Shown here one piece after another: positions 32,085-49,908 of a stretch of 64,000 bases of DNA. The notes beneath the pieces were generated by a model, which did no database searches, had not been told where the DNA came from, and saw only the letters and a list, made by a program, of their open reading frames with translations. Made by a program: the position numbers and the translations under genes. The stretch's first letter is position 1. Every line of letters begins with the position of its first letter. The stretch covers positions 682,001 to 746,000 of the forward strand of contig WKFK01000014.1 of the NCBI GenBank assembly GCA_014872815.1, given 5' to 3'. The stretch comes from Paracoccaceae bacterium (GTDB lineage: Bacteria; Pseudomonadota; Alphaproteobacteria; Rhodobacterales; Rhodobacteraceae).

Positions 32085-35000
32085 CAATTGCCCTCACTCC
32101 GAGACACGGCCAGCACCTGCACGCTGTCGGTGGACACGCCACAGGCCAATCCGGTGCTGTCGCGCGCCGTCACCGTGGCTGTATATGTGCCCGGCGCGCC
32201 GTAGGCATGGCGGGTCACAGCACCATAGCCCCCTGCCCCGTCGCCAAATTGCCAGCTGACCTCCACGCCATGCCCATCCGGATCGCGCACATCGCTGACG
32301 TCAAAGCGCAGCACATCATGCGCCGCCCCCACCGGGGTTTCACGATCTTCACCCGCGCTGATCACCGGCGCGGCATTCACCAAAATCTCCGCCGTGTCTT
32401 GCCCAACAGCACAGCTGGCACCGCTGTCATCGGTCACAATCAAGGTTGCGGTGACAGGCCCTGCGGTGTCAAACCGCCGGCTGACGTCTGCGCCGGACAA
32501 CTCAACCCCATCGGAAAAGCGCCACAGCAGATCGGTAATCTTGCCGTCCATATCATAAGCCCCGGCCCGAAACGCCACGTCTTCACCCGGACAGACCACG
32601 CGGTCGGGCCCCGCGTCGGCGGTCGGCGGTGCATTCACCCGTGCATAGACCTGCTCCAACTGGCTGGAGTTCGCCAAGCCTTTGCCATCATCGGTGGACA
32701 CCGTAACCGGGTACAGCCCCGGCGTGGTGTAGCGGTGTGTCACCGCCGCGCCTTTGCCCGTGCCGCCATCGCCAAAATCCCAGGCCACCGCCACCCCCGG
32801 CCCCACCGACAACTCCCAAGCTTTGTCGTCACCCGCACACAAGGCCCCAGCCACATCCACGCCAGTCAATGGCGCCGGGTTCACCTGCATCTCACGGGTC
32901 CATATGGCGCTGCTGTTGGCAACGCCGGCGTCGTCCGTAACCTCCAACGACAAATCATAGACGCCGGGCGTCTCATACCGATGCACGACCGACACGCCCT
33001 CCGCCGTTTGACCGTCGCCAAAATCCCAAAGGTAGCGGGTGATCACCCCGTCGCTGTCCTCCGCGTCGGTGGCATCAAACCGCGCCAAAACGCCAACTGC
33101 CACCTGTGCAGGGGCGTCCACGTCAGGTGTCGGCGCAGCATTGATCAGGATTTTGTGGCGCGTGACCAATTGCCCGCAGTCCTGCGTGCCGCCTTCCAGC
33201 GTCGTGGTCAGCGTCGCCAAATAAGCGCCCGCCTCGGCAAAGGCGTAGGACACTTCTGCGCCTTCAGCCGCGCCTCCGTCCGAGAAGGTCCAGTCATACC
33301 GCACAGGCTCGCCCGTGCCTGTCTCATCGCCCAGTACGGCGGCAAAGGTCACGGCGCTGTTCACTGGCGCGCGCTCCACCGCGTCGATCCGCTGACTACG
33401 GGCAGGCAAGACCTTCACATTGACTGTGTCGGTATCCAGCGGGCTGCATTCCCCAACCGCGTCGCCGGTGATGGTGAGCGTGACCGCATAGTCGCCCGCC
33501 CGTTCAAAGCTCTTGATCGGCGTCGCCCCGCTGGCCCGGCTGCCATCGCCAAAGGTCCATTCAAACCCATTGACCGACCCGTCCGCATCAGTGGAGCCGC
33601 TTCCATCCATGCGCACCTCCTGATTGACACAGACCGTCATGTCCGGCCCGGCATTGGCAATCGGACCCTCGCGCACAATCACCGCGATCCGGTCCAGATC
33701 AGACCCCCGTGTGCTGCCGCTCTCATCTTCCACTTGAAGAGTGACCGGGTAAGTGCCTGGCATTTCGTAAGTTTTAGTCGGATTGATCACCTCAGACAAC
33801 GTGCCATCGCCAAAGTCCCACAGATACTTCAGCAGGTCCCCATCCTCATCCGCGCTGGCCGAAGCATCAAAGATAATCGACTGGCCGGAGCACACATCTT
33901 TGTTGCCCCCGGCATCCGCCACCGGCGCGGCGTTGATGATCACCGTGGTGGCATCCACATCCTGCGCGTTGCTCAGCCCCGTGCCATCATCCACGCGCAG
34001 CGTAACCGGATAGCTGCCCGCCTTGGGGAAAACGTGGCTCACTGTTTTGCCAATCATCGGCTGAGACCCGTCGCCAAAATCCCAAAGATACATCAGCGCG
34101 TCGCCATCCGCATCGCTACTGCCACTGGCATCCAAGGTGACCAGCAACCGATCCGTATCAATCGCCGGTCCCGCCTCTGCTTCGGGGCGGTGGTTCACAT
34201 GGATGGTCACGCTGTCCTGCGCGGTGGAGTTGGCCACGCCGCTGCCATCCCGCACCACCAAACGCGCATTGTACACCCCCGCCACCGGCCAAGCGCGCTC
34301 CACCACCGCGGCCTCCAACGGGGCCTGCAGATCATCAAACTCCCAACGATATCCGGCGAGCAGCCCGTCTTTGTCAAAGCTTGAGCGCGCATCAAACCGC
34401 ACCGTGTCATCTGGTGCCACGCGCAGATCCGGCCCCGCCTGCGCCACCGGCGGCGCGTTTACGGTGATCAAAACCTCACTCTCATCCACCGCGCCGCCGC
34501 CGACAAAATCATCTGTCACCTGCAGGCGCACCCGATGCAGCCCCGGCGTGTCAAAGCGCTGCGCCACCCGCACGCCGTCTTGCGTGCTGCCATCCTCAAA
34601 TTGCCACAGGTACTGCGCGACTGAACCATCCGGATCCACCGAGGCCCCGCCATCGAGCACAAACTCCTCACCTGGCGCGACGGTCAACGCTGGACCTGCG
34701 TCGGCTATGGGTCGACTGTTGACCACCACCTGCATTGTGTCCCGATGGCTGCTTTGGGGCGCACCGCTGTCATCCGCGACAGTTAAGGCCACCTCGTAAA
34801 CCCCTGGAATTTCGTAATAATGAAGTGGCCTCACCCCTTCTGCCGTGCGCCCATCGCCAAACTCCCAGACATAGCGCGCAATCTGCCCGTCAATGTCACG
34901 CGATCCGCTGCCGTCAAACTGGACCTCGGACACGGTGACAAACTGGTCCGGCCCGGCCTCTGCCACCGGTCGGGTGTTCACAACCACCTCAAACCGCGTG

Positions 35001-36979
35001 CGCTGGGTCGCCGATTGTGTGCCGCTGTCATCAATCACGGTGAGGGTCACCTCATAGACACCGGGGCTGGCCCAAGCGTATTCCGCCACCGGCCCTTCGC
35101 CCATGGCCCCATCGCCAAAGTCCCAGAGGTGCGACAGGATCACGCCATCCGCATCGCTGGACCGGCTGCCATCCAGGATCACCGCCTCACCCACAGCCAC
35201 CGGCGCCTCCGGCCCGTCAATTGCGGGAACTGGTGGCGCGTTCACACGAATGGTCAAACGGTCGGTGCTTGTCGCATTGGCCACACCACTGTCATCGCGC
35301 ACCGACAAGGCCACCTGATAGATCCCGGGCTGCTGATACACATGCGTCACCCGACTGCCGTCGCGCTCTGTGCCGTCCCCCAAGTCCCAAACATAGCCGG
35401 TGATGGCCCCATCAACGTCATAGCTCGCCGCCCCGTCCAGCGTGACCGCCCGCCCCACAATGGTGTTCACATCCGTGCCCGCCTCGGCCACGGGCGGGAA
35501 ATTCACCATCACCAACCGGGTCGCCACGCCAAAGTTACAGGGGTGCACCGCGTCGTCACTCACGCGCAAAACCGCACGATACTCTCCCGGCTCTGTGTAA
35601 ACATGGCTGGCCTCCACCGTGTCTGCTGCCGCGCCGTCGCCAAAGCTCCACAGATAGCGCGTGATCGGACTATCGGATGGCAAGGACCCTGCGCCGGAAA
35701 ACGGCACCACGTCCCCCGGCGCGACGACAATGGCACCGCCCGCCGCGGCCCTTGGGGCCAGGCGCACATGCACAGGTACTTCCGCCTCAGCCCCGCGCGC
35801 CGCGCGCGTGCCCGGCAGCCGCACCCGCAGCCGTGCGTCATACCGCCCCGGCGCGCCATAGCTGTACACAATCACCGGCTCTTCTGAGTTGCCTCCGTCG
35901 CCATAGTCCCAGCGATAGGCCAGCAGCGGATCGCCCTCCGCCAAGCTACCGTCAAAGGCCACGCTGGAACAATCCGCCAGCTCCCGCGCCCTTGGCAGCG
36001 CCTCTGGCCGCGCGGGCACCGGCGCCAATCGGGGCGGCATTAACATCGGCACCGCTTGGCCATCCGCGTCAAACAGGCTCAGCGTCACATCATTGGGCGT
36101 CTCAAAGCCACCCTGCAGCGTCAGCGACAGAATATCCTCGCCTGCCAGTTCTTCCGCCGCCACAACCTCACTGGCCCAGACATTCTGACCGGACGCCCGC
36201 AACGCATAGTCCGAATACATCCGGTCGAGCCGCAAATCGCCCCGCGCCCCGTCAAAATTCTGCACCATCAGGTCCCCGGTCGGGGCCAGAAACTCCACAC
36301 GCGTGCCCGGCCCGGACCCGGGCCAGCGTATGGTCGGTTGATAGGCGATCATCTCAAGCCCCTCAGGCCGCCGATGCGCATCCCTCAGCAGACTCACATC
36401 CACGTTGAACCCGTTGCCGTCATCCCCATCGGCGCCAAGTACCTCCAACCGGAACCACGCGCGGTCCCCAATCACCTCGCCTTGCCGCGCGCGCACACTT
36501 CCCAGCGACACCCATTGCTGATCGGTTTCTGCCTCGGAACCAAACTCGGCTTCCCGCAAGACCTCTCCAGCACCCGCGGCCAAAACCGCGTCGCGCGTCA
36601 CCTTGGTTGGCGTCTCGCCGTCAACAACAGGCACAGGCATGGGCACCCCGTTGCGCGCGCCGTCACCACCATAGACCCGATAGAGCGTGCGAGAATTGCC
36701 CCCACCACCATAGCGGAAATCATGCTCCCCACGCATTTCTGGATCAAACACACGCACATAAACTCTATCTCGCAACCCACTTGGAACGCTAAAAAATATC
36801 ACTTCACGGTGGTCAATATCTCCTTCCCGCGTTGGTGCAGCAGAGCCGTACACAACCAATTGACCATGATCTGCAGGCGACGCCATGTCCTGCGCATTGG
36901 CCTGTGCCTTCCAAAGCCCCCAAGCCGACAAAACCGCGACCATCAGTTTCAGCCAAGTCATGCGCGCGCTCCTCTTCAT
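32084..36979 (-). CDS. Exported giant protein with 15 PKD repeats
   Basis: A 1,631-residue protein with a signal peptide (LKLMVAVLSAWGLWKAQANA). The first 350 residues form a unique N-terminal region. Fifteen consecutive PKD-type repeats follow, each with a core like YLWDFGDG, then an H.Y..PG.Y.V.L.V.D strand; repeats 6, 7, 11 and 14 deviate (FEDG, FDDL, FSDG). PKD domains are beta-sandwiches found in surface and adhesive proteins. There is no sortase motif, RTX repeat or C-terminal anchor, so it is probably periplasmic or loosely surface-held. It overlaps the upstream FecR-like gene by four bases (ATGA) and the cyclase start by one. A role as the sensing scaffold for the cyclase is inferred. 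Confidence 0.88.
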   Translation of the reverse strand: MKRSARMTWLKLMVAVLSAWGLWKAQANAQDMASPADHGQLVVYGSAAPTREGDIDHREVIFFSVPSGLRDRVYVRVFDPEMRGEHDFRYGGGGNSRTLYRVYGGDGARNGVPMPVPVVDGETPTKVTRDAVLAAGAGEVLREAEFGSEAETDQQWVSLGSVRARQGEVIGDRAWFRLEVLGADGDDGNGFNVDVSLLRDAHRRPEGLEMIAYQPTIRWPGSGPGTRVEFLAPTGDLMVQNFDGARGDLRLDRMYSDYALRASGQNVWASEVVAAEELAGEDILSLTLQGGFETPNDVTLSLFDADGQAVPMLMPPRLAPVPARPEALPRARELADCSSVAFDGSLAEGDPLLAYRWDYGDGGNSEEPVIVYSYGAPGRYDARLRVRLPGTRAARGAEAEVPVHVRLAPRAAAGGAIVVAPGDVVPFSGAGSLPSDSPITRYLWSFGDGAAADTVEASHVYTEPGEYRAVLRVSDDAVHPCNFGVATRLVMVNFPPVAEAGTDVNTIVGRAVTLDGAASYDVDGAITGYVWDLGDGTERDGSRVTHVYQQPGIYQVALSVRDDSGVANATSTDRLTIRVNAPPVPAIDGPEAPVAVGEAVILDGSRSSDADGVILSHLWDFGDGAMGEGPVAEYAWASPGVYEVTLTVIDDSGTQSATQRTRFEVVVNTRPVAEAGPDQFVTVSEVQFDGSGSRDIDGQIARYVWEFGDGRTAEGVRPLHYYEIPGVYEVALTVADDSGAPQSSHRDTMQVVVNSRPIADAGPALTVAPGEEFVLDGGASVDPDGSVAQYLWQFEDGSTQDGVRVAQRFDTPGLHRVRLQVTDDFVGGGAVDESEVLITVNAPPVAQAGPDLRVAPDDTVRFDARSSFDKDGLLAGYRWEFDDLQAPLEAAVVERAWPVAGVYNARLVVRDGSGVANSTAQDSVTIHVNHRPEAEAGPAIDTDRLLVTLDASGSSDADGDALMYLWDFGDGSQPMIGKTVSHVFPKAGSYPVTLRVDDGTGLSNAQDVDATTVIINAAPVADAGGNKDVCSGQSIIFDASASADEDGDLLKYLWDFGDGTLSEVINPTKTYEMPGTYPVTLQVEDESGSTRGSDLDRIAVIVREGPIANAGPDMTVCVNQEVRMDGSGSTDADGSVNGFEWTFGDGSRASGATPIKSFERAGDYAVTLTITGDAVGECSPLDTDTVNVKVLPARSQRIDAVERAPVNSAVTFAAVLGDETGTGEPVRYDWTFSDGGAAEGAEVSYAFAEAGAYLATLTTTLEGGTQDCGQLVTRHKILINAAPTPDVDAPAQVAVGVLARFDATDAEDSDGVITRYLWDFGDGQTAEGVSVVHRYETPGVYDLSLEVTDDAGVANSSAIWTREMQVNPAPLTGVDVAGALCAGDDKAWELSVGPGVAVAWDFGDGGTGKGAAVTHRYTTPGLYPVTVSTDDGKGLANSSQLEQVYARVNAPPTADAGPDRVVCPGEDVAFRAGAYDMDGKITDLLWRFSDGVELSGADVSRRFDTAGPVTATLIVTDDSGASCAVGQDTAEILVNAAPVISAGEDRETPVGAAHDVLRFDVSDVRDPDGHGVEVSWQFGDGAGGYGAVTRHAYGAPGTYTATVTARDSTGLACGVSTDSVQVLAVSRSEGN

Positions 36980-39306
36980 CGGATCACCTCATTGCCAGCG
37001 TAGTCCTGCACCACCACCTCGATCAGACGCATCTCTCCCGGTGTCGGCGGCAGGCTCGCGCGGCAAATGCCTCTGGCACTGTCACAGCGCAGGTAGCCCT
37101 CGAACTCTTCGCCCCCGACCTCGACCAGATACGGCGCCGCCTGACGCAACCCGCTCACATCCTGCGCCGTAACCACAATCTCAACCGGCCCATCCTCGCC
37201 CTGCGGCCGGGACAACCCTGCGTCCAGAATCTCCGGTGGTGTGAGATCCAGAAGCGTCTCAATCACCAACACCCCAACGTTGCCCGCCGCATCCACTGCG
37301 CGCAATTCCAGCAGATTTAGCCCTTCTGTCAGCGCCGCCTGCATCGCAAAGCTGCCGTCAAAGATGTCCTGCTTTGCGCCATTGAGTTCCAACGTCACCG
37401 CATCCCCAAGCGTGCCCGTCAAGTCGATCGCCTTATCCGTCGTGGCGCGCGGTGGCGGAACATCCAGCACCAGTTCCGGCGCGGCGCTGTCCCGAACCAC
37501 ATGAAACGCCAACGTCCCCGTGGACACCCCGCCTTCCGACAGAACCTCGACACTGAACGCGCGCGGTTCTTGTGCCACCGGCACCGTGATTGCCAAAACC
37601 CCGCCCGCCGCAATCCGCGTGCGCCCGGCCTCTGTCCCAACGGCATCCCGCAGAATGACCTCTTGTCCAGGTTTCGCTGACGTCGCAGCGACAACCGTCA
37701 TCTCTGCGTTGCGGCTCACCAGCTGCCCCGCGTCATCCCGCGCCATATCCGGGTTCAGCGTCATCGTCGTTGCTACGCGCGGCACATAACGTAACTGCCC
37801 GCGTTTCTCGGACACATTGCCCGCCGGATCGGTCGCCACCAGCACGATCTGGTTGGCCCCAGGCGTTAGCGCCAATGTAGCTTCAAAGCTCCCATCCGCC
37901 GCCACCTCTACGGCCATTCCATTCATCGTCAGCGTCACCCCTGCTTCAGACGCCCCCAACACTTCAACGTCAGGTGCCTCCACCAACACGCCTTCCGCCG
38001 GAGACAACAACGTCAAAAACGGCGGCGTGCTGTCCTGGCGCATTTCAAAACGGCGCACTTCGCTCCATTTGCCGGGCAATCCGAGGCCATCCAGCGCCGC
38101 CACACGCCAATAGTGGGCACCGGGGGCCAGCCCAGCCACGTCAAAGCCAAGATCTTTCACGCCCCACTCTGTCGCAATCATCTGGTTAAACGCCGGATCA
38201 CCTGCGACCTCAAACCAATACCCGCTGGCCTCCGGATACGCCTGCCACGCCAGGCGTACACCCGAGCCGTACACATCTTCTCGATCCATCGGTGCGCTCA
38301 ACAAAGGCCATTCCAACACCTTGGCCCGCGTCGCGACGCCATCTTCGGTGATCACCACGCCCTCGTCCTGTCCCAAAGACACTTTGGTGGTCTCGGCCTC
38401 AATATCCAGTGGCGCGGAATCATAGTTCACAAACAGTGCTTTGTCGGCGTCCTTCTTGATCCAGAAGTCATCGCTGTCGGTGGTGGTCTGCAGGCCCGGC
38501 ACATCAATTTCAAAACTGTCGCGATCCGACAGCTGATTGAGCAACGCATAGAAATCCCCGTTGGCCAGCGACACTTTCGTGACCTCTTTGCCGGTCAAAG
38601 GATCAGAGCGCATCCGCTGAATAGTGGCGTTGGAATTGGGGTTCAGCCGCAGCCGGCTTAGATCGCGGAAGGTCACCTGCGTGGTCGAGTTGGTCAGGGT
38701 GCGCACTTTCTCAAACTCGATCAGCACATCGTTTAGGCCGCGATCGGACCACGCCGCCTCGGCAGGCTCGCGCCCCTCCACGCGTCCATGAATGTCGGTG
38801 ATCAACGCTTCGGCCGCACGATCCCGCTGCGCCAGTGCAATCTCAAACGCCTCTGTCGCGTGTCCGGTTGCGGATCCGGCAAAGCGCACCACCTTGCGCC
38901 AGGCCCCTTCCCCCCGCGCACCAATCGCCGCCTCTCGATCCGCGATCGCGGCCCCAATCTCCTGTGGCGCAAACAGCCGTGCGCCTTCCGATGTCGCTTT
39001 CTGGATGGCTTGCAGAGCCTCGCTCAGCGCTGCATCCGCCGCCGCCACCTGCGCCACTGGCATCTGCAACACCGCCCCCGGGGCAAGGTCCGCGGGCGAG
39101 GTCAATTTGTTGATCTGCAACACGGTCGGCCAGAGATCAGGATCATTGAGATGCCGTGCCACAAAATCGCGCAAGGTCTCGTCGCCATCATAGGTCACCT
39201 CGGCATAAGGCACCTCCAGCGGGTCCACCTCTGCCGATACCACCGGCGCGAGAGTCCCACCTACGCAGGCGGCCAGCAGGCCCAACACGCGCACAATTGT
39301 CTTCAT
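36976..39306 (-). CDS. Exported LysM/FecR/Ig-like multidomain protein
   Basis: A 776-residue protein with a signal peptide ending in VVSAEVDP. Domains in order are a LysM-like segment (YDGDETLRDFVARHLNDPDLW, near residues 35-85), an alpha-helical stretch, a FecR-type domain (TTQVTFRDLSRLRLNPNSNA and VSLANGDFYALLNQ, about 205-310), a fibronectin-like module (VRLAWQAYPEASGYWFEV), and several bacterial Ig-like repeats (DGSFEATLALTPGANQIVLV, DGSFAMQAALTEGLNLLEL). The LysM part suggests peptidoglycan contact. The start at 39306 gives the signal peptide; a frame from 39378 is less likely. It heads the coupled operon with the PKD protein and cyclase. Confidence 0.85.
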   Translation of the reverse strand: MKTIVRVLGLLAACVGGTLAPVVSAEVDPLEVPYAEVTYDGDETLRDFVARHLNDPDLWPTVLQINKLTSPADLAPGAVLQMPVAQVAAADAALSEALQAIQKATSEGARLFAPQEIGAAIADREAAIGARGEGAWRKVVRFAGSATGHATEAFEIALAQRDRAAEALITDIHGRVEGREPAEAAWSDRGLNDVLIEFEKVRTLTNSTTQVTFRDLSRLRLNPNSNATIQRMRSDPLTGKEVTKVSLANGDFYALLNQLSDRDSFEIDVPGLQTTTDSDDFWIKKDADKALFVNYDSAPLDIEAETTKVSLGQDEGVVITEDGVATRAKVLEWPLLSAPMDREDVYGSGVRLAWQAYPEASGYWFEVAGDPAFNQMIATEWGVKDLGFDVAGLAPGAHYWRVAALDGLGLPGKWSEVRRFEMRQDSTPPFLTLLSPAEGVLVEAPDVEVLGASEAGVTLTMNGMAVEVAADGSFEATLALTPGANQIVLVATDPAGNVSEKRGQLRYVPRVATTMTLNPDMARDDAGQLVSRNAEMTVVAATSAKPGQEVILRDAVGTEAGRTRIAAGGVLAITVPVAQEPRAFSVEVLSEGGVSTGTLAFHVVRDSAAPELVLDVPPPRATTDKAIDLTGTLGDAVTLELNGAKQDIFDGSFAMQAALTEGLNLLELRAVDAAGNVGVLVIETLLDLTPPEILDAGLSRPQGEDGPVEIVVTAQDVSGLRQAAPYLVEVGGEEFEGYLRCDSARGICRASLPPTPGEMRLIEVVVQDYAGNEVIR

Positions 39307-39441
39307 TGGATTTTGGTCGTCCGCAGGAACACACATGCCTGCACTCCCAAAAGGGCCGTGAAAAGAAATTATGGTCAATTGTTCTTATAATCGTTCAACA
39401 GCTTGGAATGCCGCGCAAGAATTTTGCGTCTTCACACGGCC

Positions 39442-39606: not shown

Positions 39607-39635
39607 GCGTTAACGAATCGTGATTCCGTTAACGC
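39607..39635. promoter_or_regulatory. Inverted repeat upstream of the haem peroxidase, candidate operator
   Basis: GCGTTAACG and CGTTAACGC are perfect 9-bp arms separated by 11 bases that themselves read AATCGTGATTC. The site is 143 bases before the peroxidase ATG. Its GCGTTAA and TCACG elements recur in the dyad at 44913-44934. Confidence 0.5.
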
Positions 39636-39777
39636 GCACGCCTCACATGTGACAAAACAAACCGGTTTTTCCCCTTATTTTCTTCGCCAATGCGCGAAAA
39701 TGCGCGACCTTACTGCATTTTATCGCAAAGTCGCATTTCTCGTTAGAGTGGTCTCAGCAATCAAAAGGACTGAGCCA

Positions 39778-41355
39778 ATGTCGCACCGTGATCTTGAAGT
39801 TGATGACGTCTTCGCCCCAACCAGCGGCGCGTCCCCCGCCTCCCCGCTCACCGAGGAGATGACCATCTACCTCGCGACTCTGCTCAACAACAACAACAGC
39901 GCGACCAACGCGTCCAAGGGCTTCCTGAACGCCCCTAGCGGCAGCCATCTGGGGGTACCAGCAGGCTATTCCTACCTGTTCCAACTTGCAGGCCATGACC
40001 TTGTGTTCAGCTCCATGGTCCCGCGCACCTTTGACGACATTGGTGGCCGCTCGCAAAACCTGCGTCAGGAAAAACTGGCATTGGAAACCCTGTTTGGCGG
40101 CGGCCCCATTGTGTGCCCCCATGCCTTTGACATGAACCATGCCGACGGAACACACCGGTTGCGCCTTGGCAAATTCCGCCCCGCAGGACGCATGTCCGAT
40201 GACCGTCTGGCGCCTGCTGCCGACCTGCCCCGCAGCCGATATAGTGCCGACACACCGGACGCGGACGGCCCCTTCACCGATGTGTTGATCCCGGATTCCC
40301 GAAATGACGACAACAACATCCTGGCGCAGCTCACCGCCTTCTTTCATGCGGTCTACAACACGCTTGTGGCGCAAACCGCGACTGTGCCTTTGCCCGGCAC
40401 ACAAGACCCAATTCCACCGCATCACCGCTCCCGCGTGGCCCGCCTCGCAACGGCGCGCATCTATCGCCGCATCCTGCGTCACGACCTACTGCCGCGCATC
40501 ATGCCTTCTGATGTACTGGCCCTGTTTGAGGCTACGCCAACGCTGGAGCCGCTTGGCCGCAGCGCACCAGATACAAATGATCTCTTCGCCTACGGCATCG
40601 CCCGTATGGCGCACAGCATGGTGCGCCCGGAATACACGCTGAACAACGGTGTTGGCCCTCATGACCTCGGCGAGGTCGATCTGCGCAAAATCATCAACCA
40701 TTCCTCCCTGCATGAACCCGGCATGGTGCCCACGCCGATTGATTGGAAAATCGACTGGGATCTGTTCTTCACCGCCCCCGGCGCGCCACTAGCTGACAAT
40801 TTCAACTGGGCGATCCGGTTTGGTCCTCACACGGCAGATGGCATGACGCTGGCCACCGCCGGCAAACCCACCAAACCCACCTACCCGGCGGGCACCGCTA
40901 TGCGTGATCTCGTGCGCGAAAAATGGATTGGTCTGGGCCGCGTGCAGGACCTCATTCAAGCGGCGGCATCCGCACTCACCACACAGGGCATTGCAGTGCC
41001 CTTTGATGCCGCCACCCACTATGACCGCGTCGCCACCACCGGAATGGCTGCGCTCGAAGCCGCTGTGCGTCCGGGCCACAAGCCCCCCATGTCCGACACG
41101 GACAAAGCCACCATCACGGCCAACCTGCCGCTCGTGACCTTCCTTGCGCTTGAGGCACAGATCGACGGCGGCAATGGCGCCACCTACGGCCCGCTCGGCG
41201 GATTAATCCTCGGCGCAGCTTTCCGCCCTGTATTTGCCGACGACACGCCAACAAGCACGGACGCACATCTCGCCCTAGCATTGGAACAGGCCGCCTATGG
41301 CACCTCGCCCATCCGCGACATGCCGACACTGGTCGCGGCAACCGACATCACCTGA
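39778..41355 (+). CDS. Animal-type haem peroxidase family protein
   Basis: A 525-residue protein of the peroxidase-cyclooxygenase superfamily. Landmarks align in order with animal peroxidases: distal region LFQLAGHDLVF (His73), ALETLFGGGP, AFFHAVYNTLV near residue 190, RIYRRILRHDLLPRI near 230, and the proximal haem histidine in IARMAHSMV (His279). No signal peptide or RTX repeat is seen, which is unusual because most bacterial relatives are secreted. The ATG at 39778 has AAAAGGA upstream; an in-frame extension to 39649 is unlike the family. It is followed 29 bases later by a small gene with its own strong ribosome site. Confidence 0.88.
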   Translation: MSHRDLEVDDVFAPTSGASPASPLTEEMTIYLATLLNNNNSATNASKGFLNAPSGSHLGVPAGYSYLFQLAGHDLVFSSMVPRTFDDIGGRSQNLRQEKLALETLFGGGPIVCPHAFDMNHADGTHRLRLGKFRPAGRMSDDRLAPAADLPRSRYSADTPDADGPFTDVLIPDSRNDDNNILAQLTAFFHAVYNTLVAQTATVPLPGTQDPIPPHHRSRVARLATARIYRRILRHDLLPRIMPSDVLALFEATPTLEPLGRSAPDTNDLFAYGIARMAHSMVRPEYTLNNGVGPHDLGEVDLRKIINHSSLHEPGMVPTPIDWKIDWDLFFTAPGAPLADNFNWAIRFGPHTADGMTLATAGKPTKPTYPAGTAMRDLVREKWIGLGRVQDLIQAAASALTTQGIAVPFDAATHYDRVATTGMAALEAAVRPGHKPPMSDTDKATITANLPLVTFLALEAQIDGGNGATYGPLGGLILGAAFRPVFADDTPTSTDAHLALALEQAAYGTSPIRDMPTLVAATDIT

Positions 41356-41384
41356 AAACACTGTCTAAACAAGGAGGACAACCA

Positions 41385-41756
41385 ATGGATCCCTATGAGA
41401 TCAAAATCAAAAACTACTTGAAGATGGGAGAAATCCTACAAGGCTGGGCGCGCAATGCCGACACCGTGCCCGCCACTGTGGGGGACTTCCGGGCGCAGGT
41501 GCCCAGCAACGTGGCTGAACTGGCTGACGAATTCAAAGACGAAGATCCGTTGCAAATCTTCAACGCGCCGGATCAGAAGGTGGTGAGCATCATGCTGCCG
41601 CACCCAGATGACCTCGACCTGCCACCGCCCAGCCCTTACACGCTGCCGGATTTCTACGACGAAGCCTATAACGCGACGCTGGTCACACCGCCGGAAGAAG
41701 AGCACAATTTCCGCTCCAAACGAATTGCGGACTACGCCCTGCGCAAATGCGTGTAA
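41385..41756 (+). CDS. Hypothetical protein downstream of the haem peroxidase
   Basis: A 123-residue acidic protein that I do not recognise. It has an N-terminal helix (MDPYEIKIKNYLKMGEILQGW), a proline-rich middle (DLPPPSPYTLPDFYDE) and a basic end finishing RKCV with the only cysteine. The ribosome site AAGGAGGA and the short 29-base spacing make co-translation with the peroxidase very likely. It could be a peroxidase partner or substrate; its single cysteine argues against a classical azole RiPP precursor. It converges with the BTAD regulator gene across 15 bases. Confidence 0.75.
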   Translation: MDPYEIKIKNYLKMGEILQGWARNADTVPATVGDFRAQVPSNVAELADEFKDEDPLQIFNAPDQKVVSIMLPHPDDLDLPPPSPYTLPDFYDEAYNATLVTPPEEEHNFRSKRIADYALRKCV

Positions 41757-41771
41757 CCCCGCACTAATGCT

Positions 41772-43799
41772 TTAGGATGTGCCGGGATCCAATTGATATC
41801 CAAGCGCAATTTTATCGCTCTGAATCAAATCAGGCACCGGCATATCCGCCAAGCGCAACCCATCTCGCAGCGCAAGCCAGACCTTGCGATTGCGGATCGG
41901 GAAGCCGGACACCAACCACCGTGTGATCTCGGCCCGCTCCGGTGGCCCTTCCGCCACCCAGTTGGCCCGCGCAATGCTCTCAAACCGCCGCGCCACCGAC
42001 GCCGCTTCAGACAACCGCCCAACCAGCCCCAACGCAGACGCATGCCAGGCCGGAACGTCGTGGGAAATCTCATCAGATTTCTCAGACGCCGCGATACAGC
42101 CCTCGTAATCCCCAGCCATAAACCGGCTCGCTGCCACATAACTCCAATGTGACGGCTGCAAACGGAACTTCAGCTTGAACAACAAATCCAGCAACCGCCC
42201 GGAAGCCTCCAACTGGTCACAAAAAGCCAGACCCACAGCGGAGGATGTCATCGTCCAAGGGTCGTTTTCATTGTATTGAAATGCCAGATCAAAGGCCAAT
42301 TCGGCCTGCTCAAACTGGCGTGACATGGCCGCCGACCAGCCCATAGCCAACTGTCCGCGGCTGTCCATGGGATCCAGTTCAATCGCCCGCCGTGCCAGTC
42401 GCAGCCCTTCGACATGCATATCCGGCGAGCTGTACAGCCCCGGGAACGAAATCTGCCGCATATTCTCAATCGACGCTCGGCTGGAATAGGCGCGGCTGAA
42501 GTCCGGATAGTCCCGGATCAAGTCATCCAGCAAACCCTCTGCGGTTTTCCATCCTTCCAGCGTGAACTGCAGAATATGTCCCTGCGCCTCCACCCAGCGC
42601 TCATAGGCACTCGGCGCGGTCTTGTTCGTTGCGCTCAATGGACCTTTGAAGGCAGACAAATGCATGTTCAACGCCACAGCCAAACGCGCTGCCGCCCCTG
42701 GCCCTTCCGCCAAAGTCATCTGCCCCGCATCAGTCAGTGTCTCAGACCACAACAACTCGCCCGTGCCGCGATCTGACAATACCGCGCGACAGGACAGCTC
42801 GCCCCCCAAATCCTGCGGCTGCAACACCAACGCATAGCTTGCGGCCCCCGGCTCGCCCACCTGCACGTTATCAGCCATGAGCCCGGCATCAAAAATCTGC
42901 CACTCACGAAAGCGCGAAAGATTGGCGCAGAGCGCCTGACGCAAGGCTTCCGCCTCCCCCGCCCGCGCCGCAGTGAGATGCCCATAGTTGGGCTGCGCCA
43001 CAACAATCACCGGGCGCAGGGTTTTGGGTGCCTGCGCCTGTCCCGGTGATTTGATGTCAATCACAAGCTGCTGCGTTTCCTCGGAAGGCTCTTCGCCGTA
43101 TTCCTGATCCAACAGGCTCCACAGCGATTGATAGACGGTCAGCGCATTCGCCATCTGCCCGCTTTTCCAAAACGCCTTGATCAGCCGACGCGCCGCGCCT
43201 TCATCCGCCGGATCCATACCCGCGATGAACTGCAAAATCTCAAGTTGCTGTTCCTGCGTTGCGGCACTGTCCGCCGCCGCATTCAGCCGATGGCGCATCA
43301 ACCCACTGACATGCTGCATGGCCTCTGTCACGCGCGAGGCAAAGACGTCGTTGATCTCAACTTGGTCACGATCAAACTGTGCCAGCTTTTGCGGATCGAC
43401 CCGCAGGACTTTGTCCATGTCCCCCCGGTCCGCCGCCTCCAGCAGAACATCAAGGTCAATGGACACCCGCTCTTGCGCCAACCAGATGTCGCTGCGGTCG
43501 GTAAAGACTCCGTCAAAACCAGCATCCGAAAGCGACGCTTTGAGGGCCCAAACAGCATTGCGCAAACTGGTCTGCGCAGCCGTTTCAGAACTGTCCGGCC
43601 AAAGCACGCCGCGCAGTTTCTCCCGCGTCATGCGCAGCTCTGGCGTCAGGGCCAACAACACAAGCAAGGCAGCGGCTTTTTTCTTTTTGATGTCAACACG
43701 CCGATCCCCACAACGGGCCTGAAACCCGCCAATCAACGTGATGTGAAGCCGCTCTGGTGCCTTGTCTGGCACCGCAGAATTGCTCTGCTCCCGTCCCAT
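41772..43799 (-). CDS. BTAD/SARP-type transcriptional regulator with TPR sensor region
   Basis: A 675-residue protein. The N-terminal winged helix (RLHITLIGGFQARCGDRRVD, KKKKAAALLVLLAL, LRGVLWPDSSE) and the helical bacterial transcriptional activation domain (DQVEINDVF through GAARRLIKAFWKSGQMANAL) match the SARP architecture. The rest contains a region like the CadC/TPR-type sensor (ALVLQPQDLGGELSCRAVL) and TPR-like repeats (DPMDSRGQLAMGWSAAMSRQ). The start at 43799 is chosen because its ATG overlaps the stop of the YcaO gene (TGATG); an in-frame start at 43862 has no ribosome site. Coupling implies that it controls the YcaO unit and perhaps the neighbouring operons. Confidence 0.88.
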   Translation of the reverse strand: MGREQSNSAVPDKAPERLHITLIGGFQARCGDRRVDIKKKKAAALLVLLALTPELRMTREKLRGVLWPDSSETAAQTSLRNAVWALKASLSDAGFDGVFTDRSDIWLAQERVSIDLDVLLEAADRGDMDKVLRVDPQKLAQFDRDQVEINDVFASRVTEAMQHVSGLMRHRLNAAADSAATQEQQLEILQFIAGMDPADEGAARRLIKAFWKSGQMANALTVYQSLWSLLDQEYGEEPSEETQQLVIDIKSPGQAQAPKTLRPVIVVAQPNYGHLTAARAGEAEALRQALCANLSRFREWQIFDAGLMADNVQVGEPGAASYALVLQPQDLGGELSCRAVLSDRGTGELLWSETLTDAGQMTLAEGPGAAARLAVALNMHLSAFKGPLSATNKTAPSAYERWVEAQGHILQFTLEGWKTAEGLLDDLIRDYPDFSRAYSSRASIENMRQISFPGLYSSPDMHVEGLRLARRAIELDPMDSRGQLAMGWSAAMSRQFEQAELAFDLAFQYNENDPWTMTSSAVGLAFCDQLEASGRLLDLLFKLKFRLQPSHWSYVAASRFMAGDYEGCIAASEKSDEISHDVPAWHASALGLVGRLSEAASVARRFESIARANWVAEGPPERAEITRWLVSGFPIRNRKVWLALRDGLRLADMPVPDLIQSDKIALGYQLDPGTS

Positions 43800-44851
43800 C
43801 AGTACAATGGCCCCTGTGTCTGACGTCTTATCCCCGTAAGCGCCGACGCAAACCTTGGGCAAACATGGGTTTCTCGGCCCAATTGCAACGCAGCACTTAC
43901 AGCCTTGATGACCCGAAACTGCCCTTCAACACAACCCAGATCGACAATGCCAATCCCATTCTCTTGCAAAACGTCGGGCCAAGCCTGTTTGGGCATGCTT
44001 GTGCACATTTCAGTCTGCGATTGAAGCGATCTGCAGTCGCCCACCATATCTGTTTCCAACTGCGCCAACGTGAGGGTCTGGGCGGTCAAACCCGTATCAT
44101 TCGATATCATATCCGTGCCACGCGATCGCTCAAGGGCTAGCCCAAACTCTGCCGCACCAAGTTCTCTTATGGCCGCCTCCACCGCCGCCACCAGAGAAAC
44201 ACGCGCCGCCGCCCCAAAACAGAACCCGCCGCCCTGCGCATCAAACGACGCGGCCACAACAGCGGGCACACCCGTGTCACAGGTCACATCCAAAATCCGG
44301 GTGCTGCGCGTCCGCCCGGCGCCAAGCATACCGTCGACCATGTCGTCCGTGCCGGACAAAAGCACCGCCTTGGTCGCTCCCGCCCACCAATGCGCCGCCG
44401 CATCCCGCTCAAACAATTCCAGCACCCCATGGTCAACGGCCTCTGAAAACGCCACATGCGCGGCCAACCCTTCCGAAAACCCTGCCGTTTCAGACGACGA
44501 CAACGGCAACACATCCCGGTCCAAGCCCCCGGTTCTGGCCCCTTGCCAATCCAACACAGGCACGTCCTGATCGCGTGGGAGCCCGTCAACTGCTGCACGC
44601 AAGCCCAATTGCTCTGCCGCTTCGCCAGCCAGGCGGATCAACGCGCCCGTTCGGCGCTGTCCTGCTCCGGAAACCGGAGTGCCGTCCGTCAACAGGCCAC
44701 CCGCGACCACCAGGCCCGGCACGACGCTCGGCCGGCCAACAAAGACAAAGTTCAAACGTCGCAGCACCGCCGCACAAAACGCAGGCGTTTCAGGCGGCAG
44801 GATCAGATCCCCATCCAATCGCCGCTCAAATTCCTGCAATTGCGTGAACAT
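43799..44851 (-). CDS. YcaO-like family protein
   Basis: A 350-residue YcaO-superfamily protein. YcaO enzymes use ATP to activate peptide amides, making azolines or thioamides in RiPPs or modifying ribosomal proteins and methyl-CoM reductase. The ATP-site pattern is seen in SGAGQRRTGALIRLAGEAAEQ (residues 61-81) and in VLELFERDAAAHWW (about 143-156), both close to the family consensus. The later Gln/Glu region is only partly recognisable (AAIRELGAAEFGLAL), and the PxPxP end of azoline-forming members is absent. The ATG at 44851 has a GGGAGGCGGGAAG ribosome site. No TfuA, E1-like partner or obvious precursor peptide is adjacent. Confidence 0.82.
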   Translation of the reverse strand: MFTQLQEFERRLDGDLILPPETPAFCAAVLRRLNFVFVGRPSVVPGLVVAGGLLTDGTPVSGAGQRRTGALIRLAGEAAEQLGLRAAVDGLPRDQDVPVLDWQGARTGGLDRDVLPLSSSETAGFSEGLAAHVAFSEAVDHGVLELFERDAAAHWWAGATKAVLLSGTDDMVDGMLGAGRTRSTRILDVTCDTGVPAVVAASFDAQGGGFCFGAAARVSLVAAVEAAIRELGAAEFGLALERSRGTDMISNDTGLTAQTLTLAQLETDMVGDCRSLQSQTEMCTSMPKQAWPDVLQENGIGIVDLGCVEGQFRVIKAVSAALQLGRETHVCPRFASALTGIRRQTQGPLY

Positions 44852-44912
44852 GTCTTCCCGCCTCCCAAGCGCTTTGCGCACCACATAAACCCACCTTCTT
44901 GCACACCACAAA

Positions 44913-44934
44913 GCGTGATTAACGCAAATCACGC
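44913..44934. promoter_or_regulatory. Perfect inverted repeat between ycaO-like and protease genes
   Basis: GCGTGATT and AATCACGC are perfect 8-bp arms around AACGCA. The dyad is centred in the 139-base divergent gap, 62 bases from the YcaO start and 57 from the protease start. It shares the GCGTTAA and TCACG elements with the site before the peroxidase. Confidence 0.55.
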
Positions 44935-44990
44935 AAGAATAACGCTGGGTTTGGCACATTTACCTCAAAGACGATCAAAAGGAGGTTTCA

Positions 44991-46379
44991 ATGTCCCGCC
45001 CCCGCCCAACAGACCAGCTTACGACTGACAACGCCGCCCCAGCAGACGACCACCAAGCGGCGCTGGCCGCTTTGCGGGATATGTACCATGACCGCAAAGA
45101 TGTGACCGGCTATGACATCGGCTTTAAACGGGTCGGAGGCTTGGCCACCAACTCGATCTCTCTTCGGGTTCATGTGGACGCCAAATTGCCCGAAGACGAG
45201 CTCGACCCAGGCCAGCGCATTGTGCGACGCATCAAGGGCTTTCCAGTGGATGTCGTGGCCAGCACCTATAAAGTCCACCGCGATCAGTGCGACACCCAAA
45301 ACACGTATGAAACCACGCTCCTGTCCGGCAGTACCTGCCAACGTCGCGGTGCCAACGCGGGCACCATTGGCGCCATTGTCATTGACCGCGCCACCGGCAA
45401 ACCGGGCATCCTGTCCAATTGGCACGTCCTATCCTCCCCTGCGGGCGCGGACAGTGACCTTGTCTATGGCCAGCGGACGTCCGGCCTGCCCATCGGCCGA
45501 CTGACCAAATCCATGTTGTCGCGTCAGGGCGATGCAGCCGTCGCCACACTGACCGGTGCGATGCCTTGGCACCCGACACTCAAGCAATTGGACCTACCGC
45601 TTACAGGGGTTGCGCCTGCCGCCTTAGGACGCACCCTGTGCAAGTATGGCCGCACGACTGGATTAACCCATGCGCGCGTGGATGGCGTTGGCACCTACAA
45701 AGTGGTGCACACACATGGAAACGGAGTCCAAAAAATCGTCGAAATCGATGGTTTCCGCCTTGTGCCAAAAGACGCCTCGGCCCCGATGGCGTCGCTCTCT
45801 TTGCCCGGTGACAGTGGTGCCTGCTGGGTGGATCCTGACACTGGAAATGCGGTTGGGCTGCATATGGCGGGCGAAGGCACTGACTGGCCTGGCGGGGATT
45901 GCGCGTTGGCCTGCCACATGGATCGTGTGATGGACCACCTGGATCTGCGTCTTGCCACGCTGTCTGACCTGCACAGCCCGTCGGACGACACCGCACTCCG
46001 CACACAGCCGGCACAGGCACTGCATATGGTGCCCGGCATGATACGCCCCGCCAACACATTCGAACTGCAATCCGTTGGTGACTCCGGCTGCGTTTTCAGT
46101 GTTCAGGGCAACATCTGGAATGAGTTTCTCAACACCATGCTCATACAGCACCCAGAGTTTTCACAGATCCCTTTCGACATAGACGACGCCGTCGCCGACT
46201 ACTTTGGATACGGCACGTCAGGCGAAGCTCTGCATGCGATTGTTCTTGCCTCCGCCACCTTTTTACGTGATGGGGCCGTGCCGGATCTGGCAGTTCTGAC
46301 CAAGGAAGTGACCTTTCGCGGCGTTTGTTTCCGCATTGCAGAGGCCTACCGGGCGCGCGGCTATCACGTGACCGCCTAA
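44991..46379 (+). CDS. Trypsin-like serine protease with C-terminal extension
   Basis: A 462-residue protein with a chymotrypsin-fold catalytic triad: His145 in LSNWHVL, Asp181 in RQGDAAVATL and Ser275 in LPGDSGACW. The first 90 residues form a separate N-terminal module (DIGFKRVGG, SISLRVHVDAKLP). The last 120 residues (from FELQSVGDSGCVF) are an alpha-rich extension that I do not recognise. There is no signal peptide, so the protease should act in the cytosol. The ribosome site AAAGGAGG is ideal. It is divergent from the YcaO-BTAD pair and precedes the 209-residue protein gene. Confidence 0.85.
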   Translation: MSRPRPTDQLTTDNAAPADDHQAALAALRDMYHDRKDVTGYDIGFKRVGGLATNSISLRVHVDAKLPEDELDPGQRIVRRIKGFPVDVVASTYKVHRDQCDTQNTYETTLLSGSTCQRRGANAGTIGAIVIDRATGKPGILSNWHVLSSPAGADSDLVYGQRTSGLPIGRLTKSMLSRQGDAAVATLTGAMPWHPTLKQLDLPLTGVAPAALGRTLCKYGRTTGLTHARVDGVGTYKVVHTHGNGVQKIVEIDGFRLVPKDASAPMASLSLPGDSGACWVDPDTGNAVGLHMAGEGTDWPGGDCALACHMDRVMDHLDLRLATLSDLHSPSDDTALRTQPAQALHMVPGMIRPANTFELQSVGDSGCVFSVQGNIWNEFLNTMLIQHPEFSQIPFDIDDAVADYFGYGTSGEALHAIVLASATFLRDGAVPDLAVLTKEVTFRGVCFRIAEAYRARGYHVTA

Positions 46380-46406
46380 CCCCTCATGCCAAAGGACCAA
46401 CCGCAT

Positions 46407-47036
46407 ATGTGTCAACGGATTTACGCCGTCGATGAGGTGTCACTGACCCGACAAGACGCACAGTCGTCCAATCTTCTGGTTCAGGTGCAAGCGCGCGCGG
46501 TCACATCGGGATGGCGCACGCCGACACTCAAGCGTCACAGTTATAAAACCCCGCCAGAGGACGGTATATTGACCTATGATCTGCAGGCCATCGCCCCGAA
46601 TGCGGAGGATACAGTCTTGCCCGTGCTCACACGTGTATGCGCCGACACGGCGCTAACTGCTGTCGACATTAAAAACTTTTGGGGACCGGGACAGCCTCTT
46701 GTTGGGGTGCGGTGCAACGCGCAAAGCAACAATAAGCTGACGCTTCTGGAATCCAGACTGGGGGGCTCTGAAATGGCAGCTGCGCCTCAGCAGAGTTATT
46801 CGGAGGAATATATTCCACAGTTCGCGCGCGACATCCGTCCGCTGTTTCGCCCATACGACATCGCCATGATGATGCGGGTACGTGATCTCGATCTCGGCTC
46901 CTACGAGGCGGTGTGCCAACACGGCGCCTTGATTCTGTCCCGCCTGAAAGATGGCTCGATGCCCAACGACGGCCCATGGCCCGCCAGTGATGTGGCGCTG
47001 TTTGAACAATGGCTGCTCAAAGGCAAGGCGCCATAG
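46407..47036 (+). CDS. Hypothetical protein with DIRPLF...MPxxGPW tail
   Basis: A 209-residue protein. The N-terminal 120 residues look like a beta-rich domain (SNLLVQVQARAVTSGW, PPEDGILTYDLQAIAP). The C-terminal 75 residues begin FARDIRPLFRPYDIAMM and end MPNDGPWPASDVALFEQWL, a short helical module that I recall from the ends of various oxidoreductase-associated proteins; it lacks a CxxCH haem site. The ATG at 46407 has AAAGGAC upstream, preferred to the one at 46386. It is in an operon with the trypsin-like protease. Function unknown. Confidence 0.75.
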   Translation: MCQRIYAVDEVSLTRQDAQSSNLLVQVQARAVTSGWRTPTLKRHSYKTPPEDGILTYDLQAIAPNAEDTVLPVLTRVCADTALTAVDIKNFWGPGQPLVGVRCNAQSNNKLTLLESRLGGSEMAAAPQQSYSEEYIPQFARDIRPLFRPYDIAMMMRVRDLDLGSYEAVCQHGALILSRLKDGSMPNDGPWPASDVALFEQWLLKGKAP

Positions 47037-49000: not shown

Positions 49001-49786
49001 TTACGCCTCACACAAACGTTCTATTGCATGGATCAAAGGCTCCAAGTCCGCTGCATAGAAGCCGGCGGCATTGATGCCGTTTGTCTCGATGATACGCAGA
49101 CCAGCCTTTGTCCGGCAGATGTCAATGACATAGGCGGGCGCATAACCACTGTTAAGCTGCGCCATCTTCTGTCCAAAACTCAGTGCGTCCTCTGGAATGT
49201 CATGCACATACCCAACTTGCCCCGCCTGCTTGTAGCGCGAGTAGGTGACAACGCGGTCCTCGACCACCCAAAGGCGCCACTCCTCATCAATTGTTTGCGG
49301 TTCTGTCAACATGACCAACGTGTCCGCCCGTAAGGAACCAATCGGTAGCTCCCCTTCAGGCAACGCCGAAACGCGCGCTGACAAGTCCGCAATGTCTTGA
49401 GCCGCCATGACGCGGCCTGGAACTTCCTTGCTGTCTTCTACCGGACGCAAGAACCACATCTTGCTGTCCCCCGAAAAGCAGCTAGCGCATTCGCCAAACG
49501 ACATCACACGGGCATCCGTGCCATTGAGTAAGTATGGATGCCAGACAGACTGCTGAAGAAACGGCGCAATTCGAAAGACCCCAGGTTCTAACTTGTGCGA
49601 TTCCGCATACTTCCACATGCTATAGGCACCAAACAACACCACAGCTTTTGGGTCTTTAATGATTGGCCGAGGCGTCAGGTCACCGACAAAAGGAACAATT
49701 TTGTGCCAACTGACATCTCGCCCCAAAGACGTGAGCGCATCCCCAAGTTTCCGTGTGTCTTCAAAATCTTGCAGCAACCATTGCAT
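49001..49786 (-). CDS. ATP-grasp domain protein (DUF4343-like)
   Basis: A 261-residue protein whose second half fits an ATP-grasp ligase: hinge and metal region in EEWRLWVVEDRVVTYSRYK, then APAYVIDICRTKAGLRIIETNGINAAGFY, where Asp (VIDI) and Glu/Asn (IETN) would bind magnesium. ATP-grasp enzymes join a carboxylate to an amine or thiol through acyl phosphate. The ATG at 49786 has AGGTGA upstream. No amino-acid or peptide biosynthesis genes are adjacent, so the substrate is unknown. Similar single genes occur in phages and scattered bacteria. Confidence 0.8.
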   Translation of the reverse strand: MQWLLQDFEDTRKLGDALTSLGRDVSWHKIVPFVGDLTPRPIIKDPKAVVLFGAYSMWKYAESHKLEPGVFRIAPFLQQSVWHPYLLNGTDARVMSFGECASCFSGDSKMWFLRPVEDSKEVPGRVMAAQDIADLSARVSALPEGELPIGSLRADTLVMLTEPQTIDEEWRLWVVEDRVVTYSRYKQAGQVGYVHDIPEDALSFGQKMAQLNSGYAPAYVIDICRTKAGLRIIETNGINAAGFYAADLEPLIHAIERLCEA

Positions 49787-49908
49787 GCCATTCACCTGTA
49801 TCTCAAAAGTCTCGGTACGGCAGAAGGACGCAATCCGCCGTCAACCGCAGCACATAAACTTCAACCAAAATGTACTAATTACTCGCTTTGTACACCCCAA
49901 GCCCCTAC

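Follow-up and report, generated by a model that had tools for sequence, protein, structure and literature searches.

A group of four genes, encoding a YcaO enzyme, a regulator with BTAD and TPR domains, a haem peroxidase and a cysteine-tailed protein (the CX protein, here p123), is a real module that recurs in scattered Alphaproteobacteria. It is described from a stretch of 64,000 nucleotides (the window) of Paracoccaceae bacterium (assembly GCA_014872815.1, contig WKFK01000014.1, positions 682,001 to 746,000), whose genome belongs to Shimia, and within-genus comparisons were made with other Shimia genomes or loci. A preliminary description of this DNA had placed the genes in a block of six, with YcaO and BTAD genes overlapping by one base, and all six open reading frames (ORFs) are present at the positions it gave (Table 1). 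Its suggestion of an undescribed YcaO-centred system is borne out, as the linkage is conserved and no description was found in the open-access literature. It is tentatively proposed from sequence, at a likelihood somewhat short of even, that the four genes form a protein-modification module in which YcaO would activate the Cys of the CX tail and the peroxidase would serve as oxidative partner.

Full-length relatives of YcaO occur in three of the 18 same-genus genomes besides that of the window, and a scan of genome contigs gave those three Shimia genomes and one Shimia metagenome-assembled genome. In all four of these loci, the peroxidase-p123-BTAD-YcaO-protease block is complete. Since the block is kept in every one of them and the four-gene core recurs across genera, the adjacency goes beyond chance. 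For wider sampling, family-level draws of approximately 390 genomes each, nearly one per genus, were searched with the own genome counted in each, giving matches for YcaO in 28 of 394 genomes, for the peroxidase in 29 of 388, and for the protease in 8 of 388. Neighbourhoods were taken from every non-own YcaO genome but one (26 of 27, without G139), from all 28 peroxidase genomes, and from all seven protease genomes. In addition, 381 class and 393 phylum genomes were searched with a BTAD profile, with up to three candidates scored per genome, which makes the resulting counts lower bounds. The scores fall into two sets, at least 540 bits and at most 405 bits; all 10 non-own high-scoring loci were examined, together with nine low-scoring loci as controls, leaving aside a tenth low-scoring stretch (L144).

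The counts that follow rest on a six-frame profile scan of 83 loci, in which module-type BTAD was defined by 500 bits or more, intact YcaO by more than 100 bits, and module-type peroxidase by a residue other than Asp before the distal His. Gene calls in the loci of relatives are those of this analysis, and the codon-usage gene caller overlooked YcaO in L082, L095, and L111. Module-type BTAD was found in 33 of the 83 loci. YcaO is intact in 31 of these 33 (the exceptions being L166 and L171, the latter with a fragment), and a module-type peroxidase is present in 30 (all except L094, L116, and L166). The CX tail occurs in 31 of them (all except L116 and L166), compared to one of the 50 other loci, where the match (L197) is a stray; a second stray match lies in L036 beside its real tail. 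Since the loci entered the set through a match to YcaO, the peroxidase, the protease, or BTAD, the linkage among these genes is partly selected for; the CX tail played no part in the choice.

Several of the incomplete loci were followed into their genomes. In G347, the genome of L116, a profile search found a CX protein and an adjoining, divergent peroxidase with Glu at the diagnostic position before the distal His, both approximately 12 kb from YcaO-BTAD. G516, the genome of L166, shows neither a peroxidase nor a YcaO, and also lacks a CX protein of the single group covered by profile A5. The YcaO of L171 (L171:11205-11894) lacks its middle, and its genome, G1037, carries a second open module-type YcaO elsewhere (L227:9107-10444). 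Protein distances correlate between YcaO and peroxidase (r=0.85), YcaO and BTAD (0.80), and peroxidase and BTAD (0.895; Mantel p ~0.0005), which fits joint inheritance or joint transfer. Six plasmids were examined from 27 plasmid records bearing a peroxidase relative. L210 (Mesorhizobium huakuii), L212 (Paroceanicella profunda), L213 (Paracoccus denitrificans), and L215 (Paracoccus sp. SMMA_5_TC) each encode YcaO together with a module-type peroxidase and a CX tail. Module BTAD was found on the first three (479, 601, and 536 bits, respectively) and not on L215. None of the module partners is present on the plasmids with an Asp-type peroxidase (Sinorhizobium meliloti pSymA and Paracoccus yeei). 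The presence on plasmids suggests that the module may be mobile. Within this sample, all complete modules seen come from Alphaproteobacteria.

The tail of the CX protein has a consensus, [VLIF][GA]x[YIF]xxxxC-X, that is shared by otherwise unrelated bodies, which fall into five groups without a BLAST link (26 representatives). Genes downstream of the peroxidase were taken by position; the tail was first noticed in sequence-linked relatives of p123 and then looked for in the others. Fourteen of 16 aligned proteins, a set that includes the fused domain of L079, end in C-X; as five of the 16 belonged to the discovery set, the independent check amounts to nine of 11. In the two misses, L081 and L096, the C-X protein sits between YcaO and BTAD. 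All 26 representatives have Cys at position -2 (after a one-residue shift of L165, which ends in C-G-P), G or A at -9, and Y, I, or F at -7. In a larger set of 36 proteins, chosen by a pattern containing that Cys, 35 have it at -2 and the remaining one has it at -3. Two loci obtained after the tail rule had been set, L198 and L206, both conform to it. The first set of loci contains 733 ORFs; a penultimate Cys is found in 29 of them, CX tails accounting for 20, and Cys at the other positions from -1 to -8 is found in 1-10 ORFs. As called, the CX proteins measure 75-244 aa, and in 23 of 36 no Cys besides that of the tail lies within the last 120 open-frame residues. The DNA pattern DYxxxxCX-stop matches the own genome eight times, once at p123, versus four times for a reversed control. 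An amphipathic helical tail was considered and dropped, the hydrophobic moment at 100 degrees being 0.225 against 0.226 in column shuffles.

By presence, CX follows YcaO, as it is found in no examined genome that lacks an open YcaO (G1037 having its intact second copy). CX without a module peroxidase was seen only once, in L094, whose genome (G418) gave a single peroxidase relative, unlinked and of the Asp type. Upstream of CX in this locus lies a gene for a 722-aa protein (L094:12988-15156) that matches CarboxypepD_reg and an M74-type murein endopeptidase. Thirty-four loci have both CX and peroxidase, and in 33 of them CX and BTAD are convergent. In 30 of the 34, CX lies on the same strand directly downstream of the peroxidase, while it is fused to the peroxidase C-terminus in L079, apart from it in L081 and L096, and, in L088, apart by the six-frame rule and adjacent by ORF call. 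The preliminary description had named either p123 or the 209-residue protein (p216, by its longer start) as a possible substrate; p123 is the best candidate, whereas p216 was dropped, being present in only two of four Shimia relatives.

The peroxidase of the window matches Pfam at E=0.35 only, and its identity as an animal-type haem peroxidase, claimed previously, is upheld through its relatives. Among 27 aligned peroxidases (21 module-type, including that of the window, and six others), 24 match PF03098, the window protein not being one of them, and a profile built from all 27 matches lactoperoxidase at 1.7e-19. Q83, H87, R290, and H293 are conserved in 27 of 27 and R189 in 26 of 27; these include the distal His, Gln, and Arg and the proximal His of animal haem peroxidases. 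The Glu three residues after the Arg is kept in three of 21 module members versus six of six others. In a tree that also includes 10 non-module peroxidases, the 26 module peroxidases group into a single clade (support 0.978), and the Asp preceding the distal His is found in none of the 26 and in all 10 of the others. In mammalian peroxidases, this Asp forms an ester bond to the covalently held haem. Its loss points to an altered haem site in the module peroxidases. A larger scan gave 20 Asp-type peroxidases. Module BTAD is absent from the loci of 19 of these, and the twentieth (L170:12880-14358) is an extra gene adjoining a complete module. The database records examined label members of this subfamily "peroxidase family protein" or "hypothetical protein".

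In YcaO, the ATP/Mg-binding residues E77, E80, E145, E148, and R149 are invariant across 18 sequences. The nearest solved YcaO enzymes by profile are TruD and LynD, and TIGR03604 is matched far under its cut-off. TfuA was found in none of five genomes searched, including the own genome, and a SagB-type azoline dehydrogenase in none of G000, G160, and G304. SagB matches that are weak in G221 and strong in G959 each lie on a contig other than that of the module. The absence of both from the own genome agrees with the preliminary description, according to which this is not a standard cluster for ribosomally synthesized and post-translationally modified peptides (RiPPs). The module BTAD consists of a weakly matched winged helix, BTAD, and TPR domains and forms a distinct subfamily by score. 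The BTAD genes of L092, L093, L095, L114, L115, and L173 have an N-terminal extension of ~170-220 aa, in which Pfam detects a class III cyclase domain in L092 and L115, the two that were scanned.

In the proposed mechanism, YcaO would use ATP to activate the backbone amide beside the penultimate Cys of the CX tail, the most likely product being an azoline at the extreme C-terminus of the CX protein. The peroxidase could then act as oxidative partner, for example by converting the azoline to an azole, or through another H2O2-driven change of the tail. Given that TruD and LynD are the nearest enzymes and that neither TfuA nor SagB is found in the own genome, the simplest reading is that an azoline forms at the Cys and that the peroxidase oxidizes it. 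In the available text of one study, the YcaO enzyme CcaB left a C-terminal Cys, Ser, or Thr unmodified, and its authors suggest that a follower sequence may be needed (PMC10676384). A Cys that stands one residue short of the C-terminus agrees with this suggestion. The sequences themselves show that the linkage is conserved, that the ATP site is intact, that a Cys tail with hardly any variation sits on unrelated bodies, and that the peroxidases form a clade specific to the module; we infer that YcaO acts on the tail, that the product is an azoline, what the peroxidase does, and what purpose the module serves. It is less likely than not that the module represents a new YcaO chemistry, namely an ATP-dependent, peroxidase-assisted modification at the penultimate Cys of unrelated folded proteins, with a C-terminal tag read by YcaO/BTAD in place of a leader-guided core.

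A number of observations weigh against the proposed modification. No E1/ThiF-like gene was found by Pfam among the 13 window genes at 32.1-52.0 kb, the flanks of other modules being unscanned, and no CX was found in genome G354 (~70% complete), in which YcaO and a module-type peroxidase lie at a contig end (L087). The large CX bodies with a single tail Cys differ from azoline precursors. Between the window and its Shimia relatives, nonsynonymous divergence (dN) rises from p123 (0.02-0.05) through peroxidase and BTAD (0.07-0.10) and the protease (0.12-0.20) to YcaO (0.31-0.39). Ratios to synonymous divergence (dS) are rough because dS is near saturation (0.5-2.4). Thus, YcaO evolves fastest and CX slowest in Shimia, which is the reverse of the usual contrast between enzyme and precursor. 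The mirror-tree correlations cannot tell co-function from co-transfer. Finally, by position CX goes with the peroxidase, as seen in its downstream placement, the L079 fusion, and the neighbouring genes of G347, and these same arrangements also fit a subunit role.

Such a role is the strongest alternative, and it is a serious one, though rather unlikely: CX would be an accessory subunit of the peroxidase, helping in its assembly or haem loading or relaying electrons by way of the C-terminal Cys, and the target of YcaO would be either the peroxidase itself or something unlinked. In addition to the arrangements above, the altered haem site, with its Asp lost throughout the clade, would be in keeping with a partner of this kind. 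However, L094 retains CX with YcaO-BTAD and without a module peroxidase, the YcaO gene separates peroxidase from CX in L081 and L096, and five unrelated bodies would need to act as subunits through the tail alone.

Less probable is a regulatory and oxidative-stress unit without a peptide product, in which BTAD, in some cases with a cyclase, would sense a signal, YcaO would switch the regulator or CX, and the peroxidase would be the output. The cyclase-fused BTAD versions in L092 and L115 are consistent with signal sensing, and a KatG-type peroxidase gene lies near one module (a catalase-peroxidase-type gene, PF00141, at L095:4398-6542, ~3 kb away). However, a near-invariant Cys tail on unrelated proteins would not be expected of a stress output gene.

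The pathway proposed in the preliminary description, YcaO modification followed by cleavage of p123 or p216 by the trypsin-like protease, is very improbable, since 28 of the 33 module loci have no protease and p216 is missing from half of the Shimia relatives. In its favour, protease and YcaO genes are arranged divergently in the window, in all four other Shimia loci, and in genome G035 (L083), with the same GNAT and MmcB-like neighbours at the protease site in loci long enough to show them. Among the seven other family genomes with a protease relative, the module stands beside it in one. The comparison of YcaO neighbourhoods that had been recommended was run, and the link to the peroxidase survives it while a general link to the protease is refuted; the protease was dropped from the module core, and it and p216 are local additions. 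A trypsin triad is visible by eye in the window protease (SNWHVL, GDAAVA, and PGDSG). Two of its relatives match NAL1_N and one Trypsin_2 in Pfam, all below cut-off. G035 has a second, unlinked putative NAL1-like protease (L084:9177-10697), which is closer to that of the window than the linked copy is and shares its C-terminal region. In L111, a GDSL/Amidase_3/M15 peptidoglycan hydrolase-like gene (L111:11839-14340) is divergent from YcaO at the site where Shimia has the protease.

Among known systems, the module resembles the azol(in)e RiPP clusters of thiazole/oxazole-modified microcins (TOMMs; TruD, LynD, and McbD) in its YcaO fold with ATP/Mg residues and in its best matches among solved YcaO enzymes. 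It differs from them in having a haem peroxidase instead of E1/ThiF (13 window genes) or SagB (own genome), and a protein with an end Cys instead of a short precursor with a leader and a core rich in Cys, Ser, and Thr. It shares a stand-alone YcaO with the TfuA-associated thioamidating systems and differs in the absence of TfuA from the five genomes. The peroxidase shares the distal His with Gln, the Arg, and the proximal His with animal enzymes (lactoperoxidase, myeloperoxidase, and peroxinectin), whereas the module members lack the Asp, have mostly lost the Glu, and are linked to YcaO. The regulator is like the AfsR/SARP-type BTAD regulators in its domains and unlike them in its distinct subfamily and its linkage to YcaO and CX.

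To our knowledge, the substrate has yet to be established for many stand-alone YcaO enzymes. The substrates of the non-TOMM and TfuA groups were not known as of 2015, according to the available part of one paper (PMC4603692). No report joining YcaO with a haem peroxidase was found in the open-access literature; the two terms co-occur in PMC8776678, PMC9867215, and PMC12779148, not for one system in the portions available, and "YCao" in the accessible text of PMC5145892 is an author name beside peroxidase wording. Both terms also occur in PMC11166776 and PMC10218137, whose texts were not part of this comparison. If the proposed modification is correct, this would be the first YcaO system paired with a haem peroxidase, as far as the open-access literature shows; YcaO biology would then extend to the chemistry of haem peroxidases and to the tagging of proteins at their C-terminus, and a peroxidase subfamily now annotated generically would gain a function. 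The sequence itself names candidates for the substrate, the reactive residue, and the oxidative partner.

Table 1. Features of the block in the window (positions within the 64,000 nucleotides).
Feature	Position	Strand	Remarks
Animal-type haem peroxidase, module subfamily	39778..41355	+	Distal-His motif Q-L-A-G-H-D, Asp to Gly
123-aa cysteine-tailed (CX) protein p123, proposed substrate	41385..41756	+	
Conserved C-terminal tail of p123, KRIADYALRKCV	41718..41753	+	Penultimate Cys codon TGC 41748-41750
Winged-helix/BTAD/TPR regulator	41772..43799	-	Convergent with CX gene
YcaO enzyme, ATP/Mg-site glutamates intact	43799..44851	-	Stop overlaps BTAD start ATG by 1 base
Putative NAL1-like trypsin-fold protease, accessory	44991..46379	+	Linkage only in Shimia and one other genus among loci seen
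p216 (209 aa from second ATG), lineage-specific	46386..47036	+	In 2/4 Shimia relatives

The peroxidase start in Table 1, an ATG, is likely because the genes of L036 and L037 begin with an identical MSHRDLE, and the YcaO start, also an ATG (MFxELRE), is the most likely one because it is common to the Shimia relatives. Pfam matches the window proteins for YcaO at 5e-20 and for BTAD at 8.7e-10 (39.6 bits, cut-off 22.1), with no match for p123, the protease, or p216. By eye, no signal peptide was seen in the proteins of the block. None of the six window proteins matches a PADLOC anti-phage model at E<=0.01, and a reading as anti-phage defence was dropped for this reason. Upstream of the block, at 32084-39378, the window encodes a FecR/Ig-domain protein and a 1631-aa protein bearing 15 PKD domains; the FecR gene is kept beside the module in L036 and L038, while other genes are found there in L035 and L037. 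Downstream, at 49001-49795, lies a gene for a 264-aa protein with an R2K-type ATP-grasp domain, a relative of which is found in L038.

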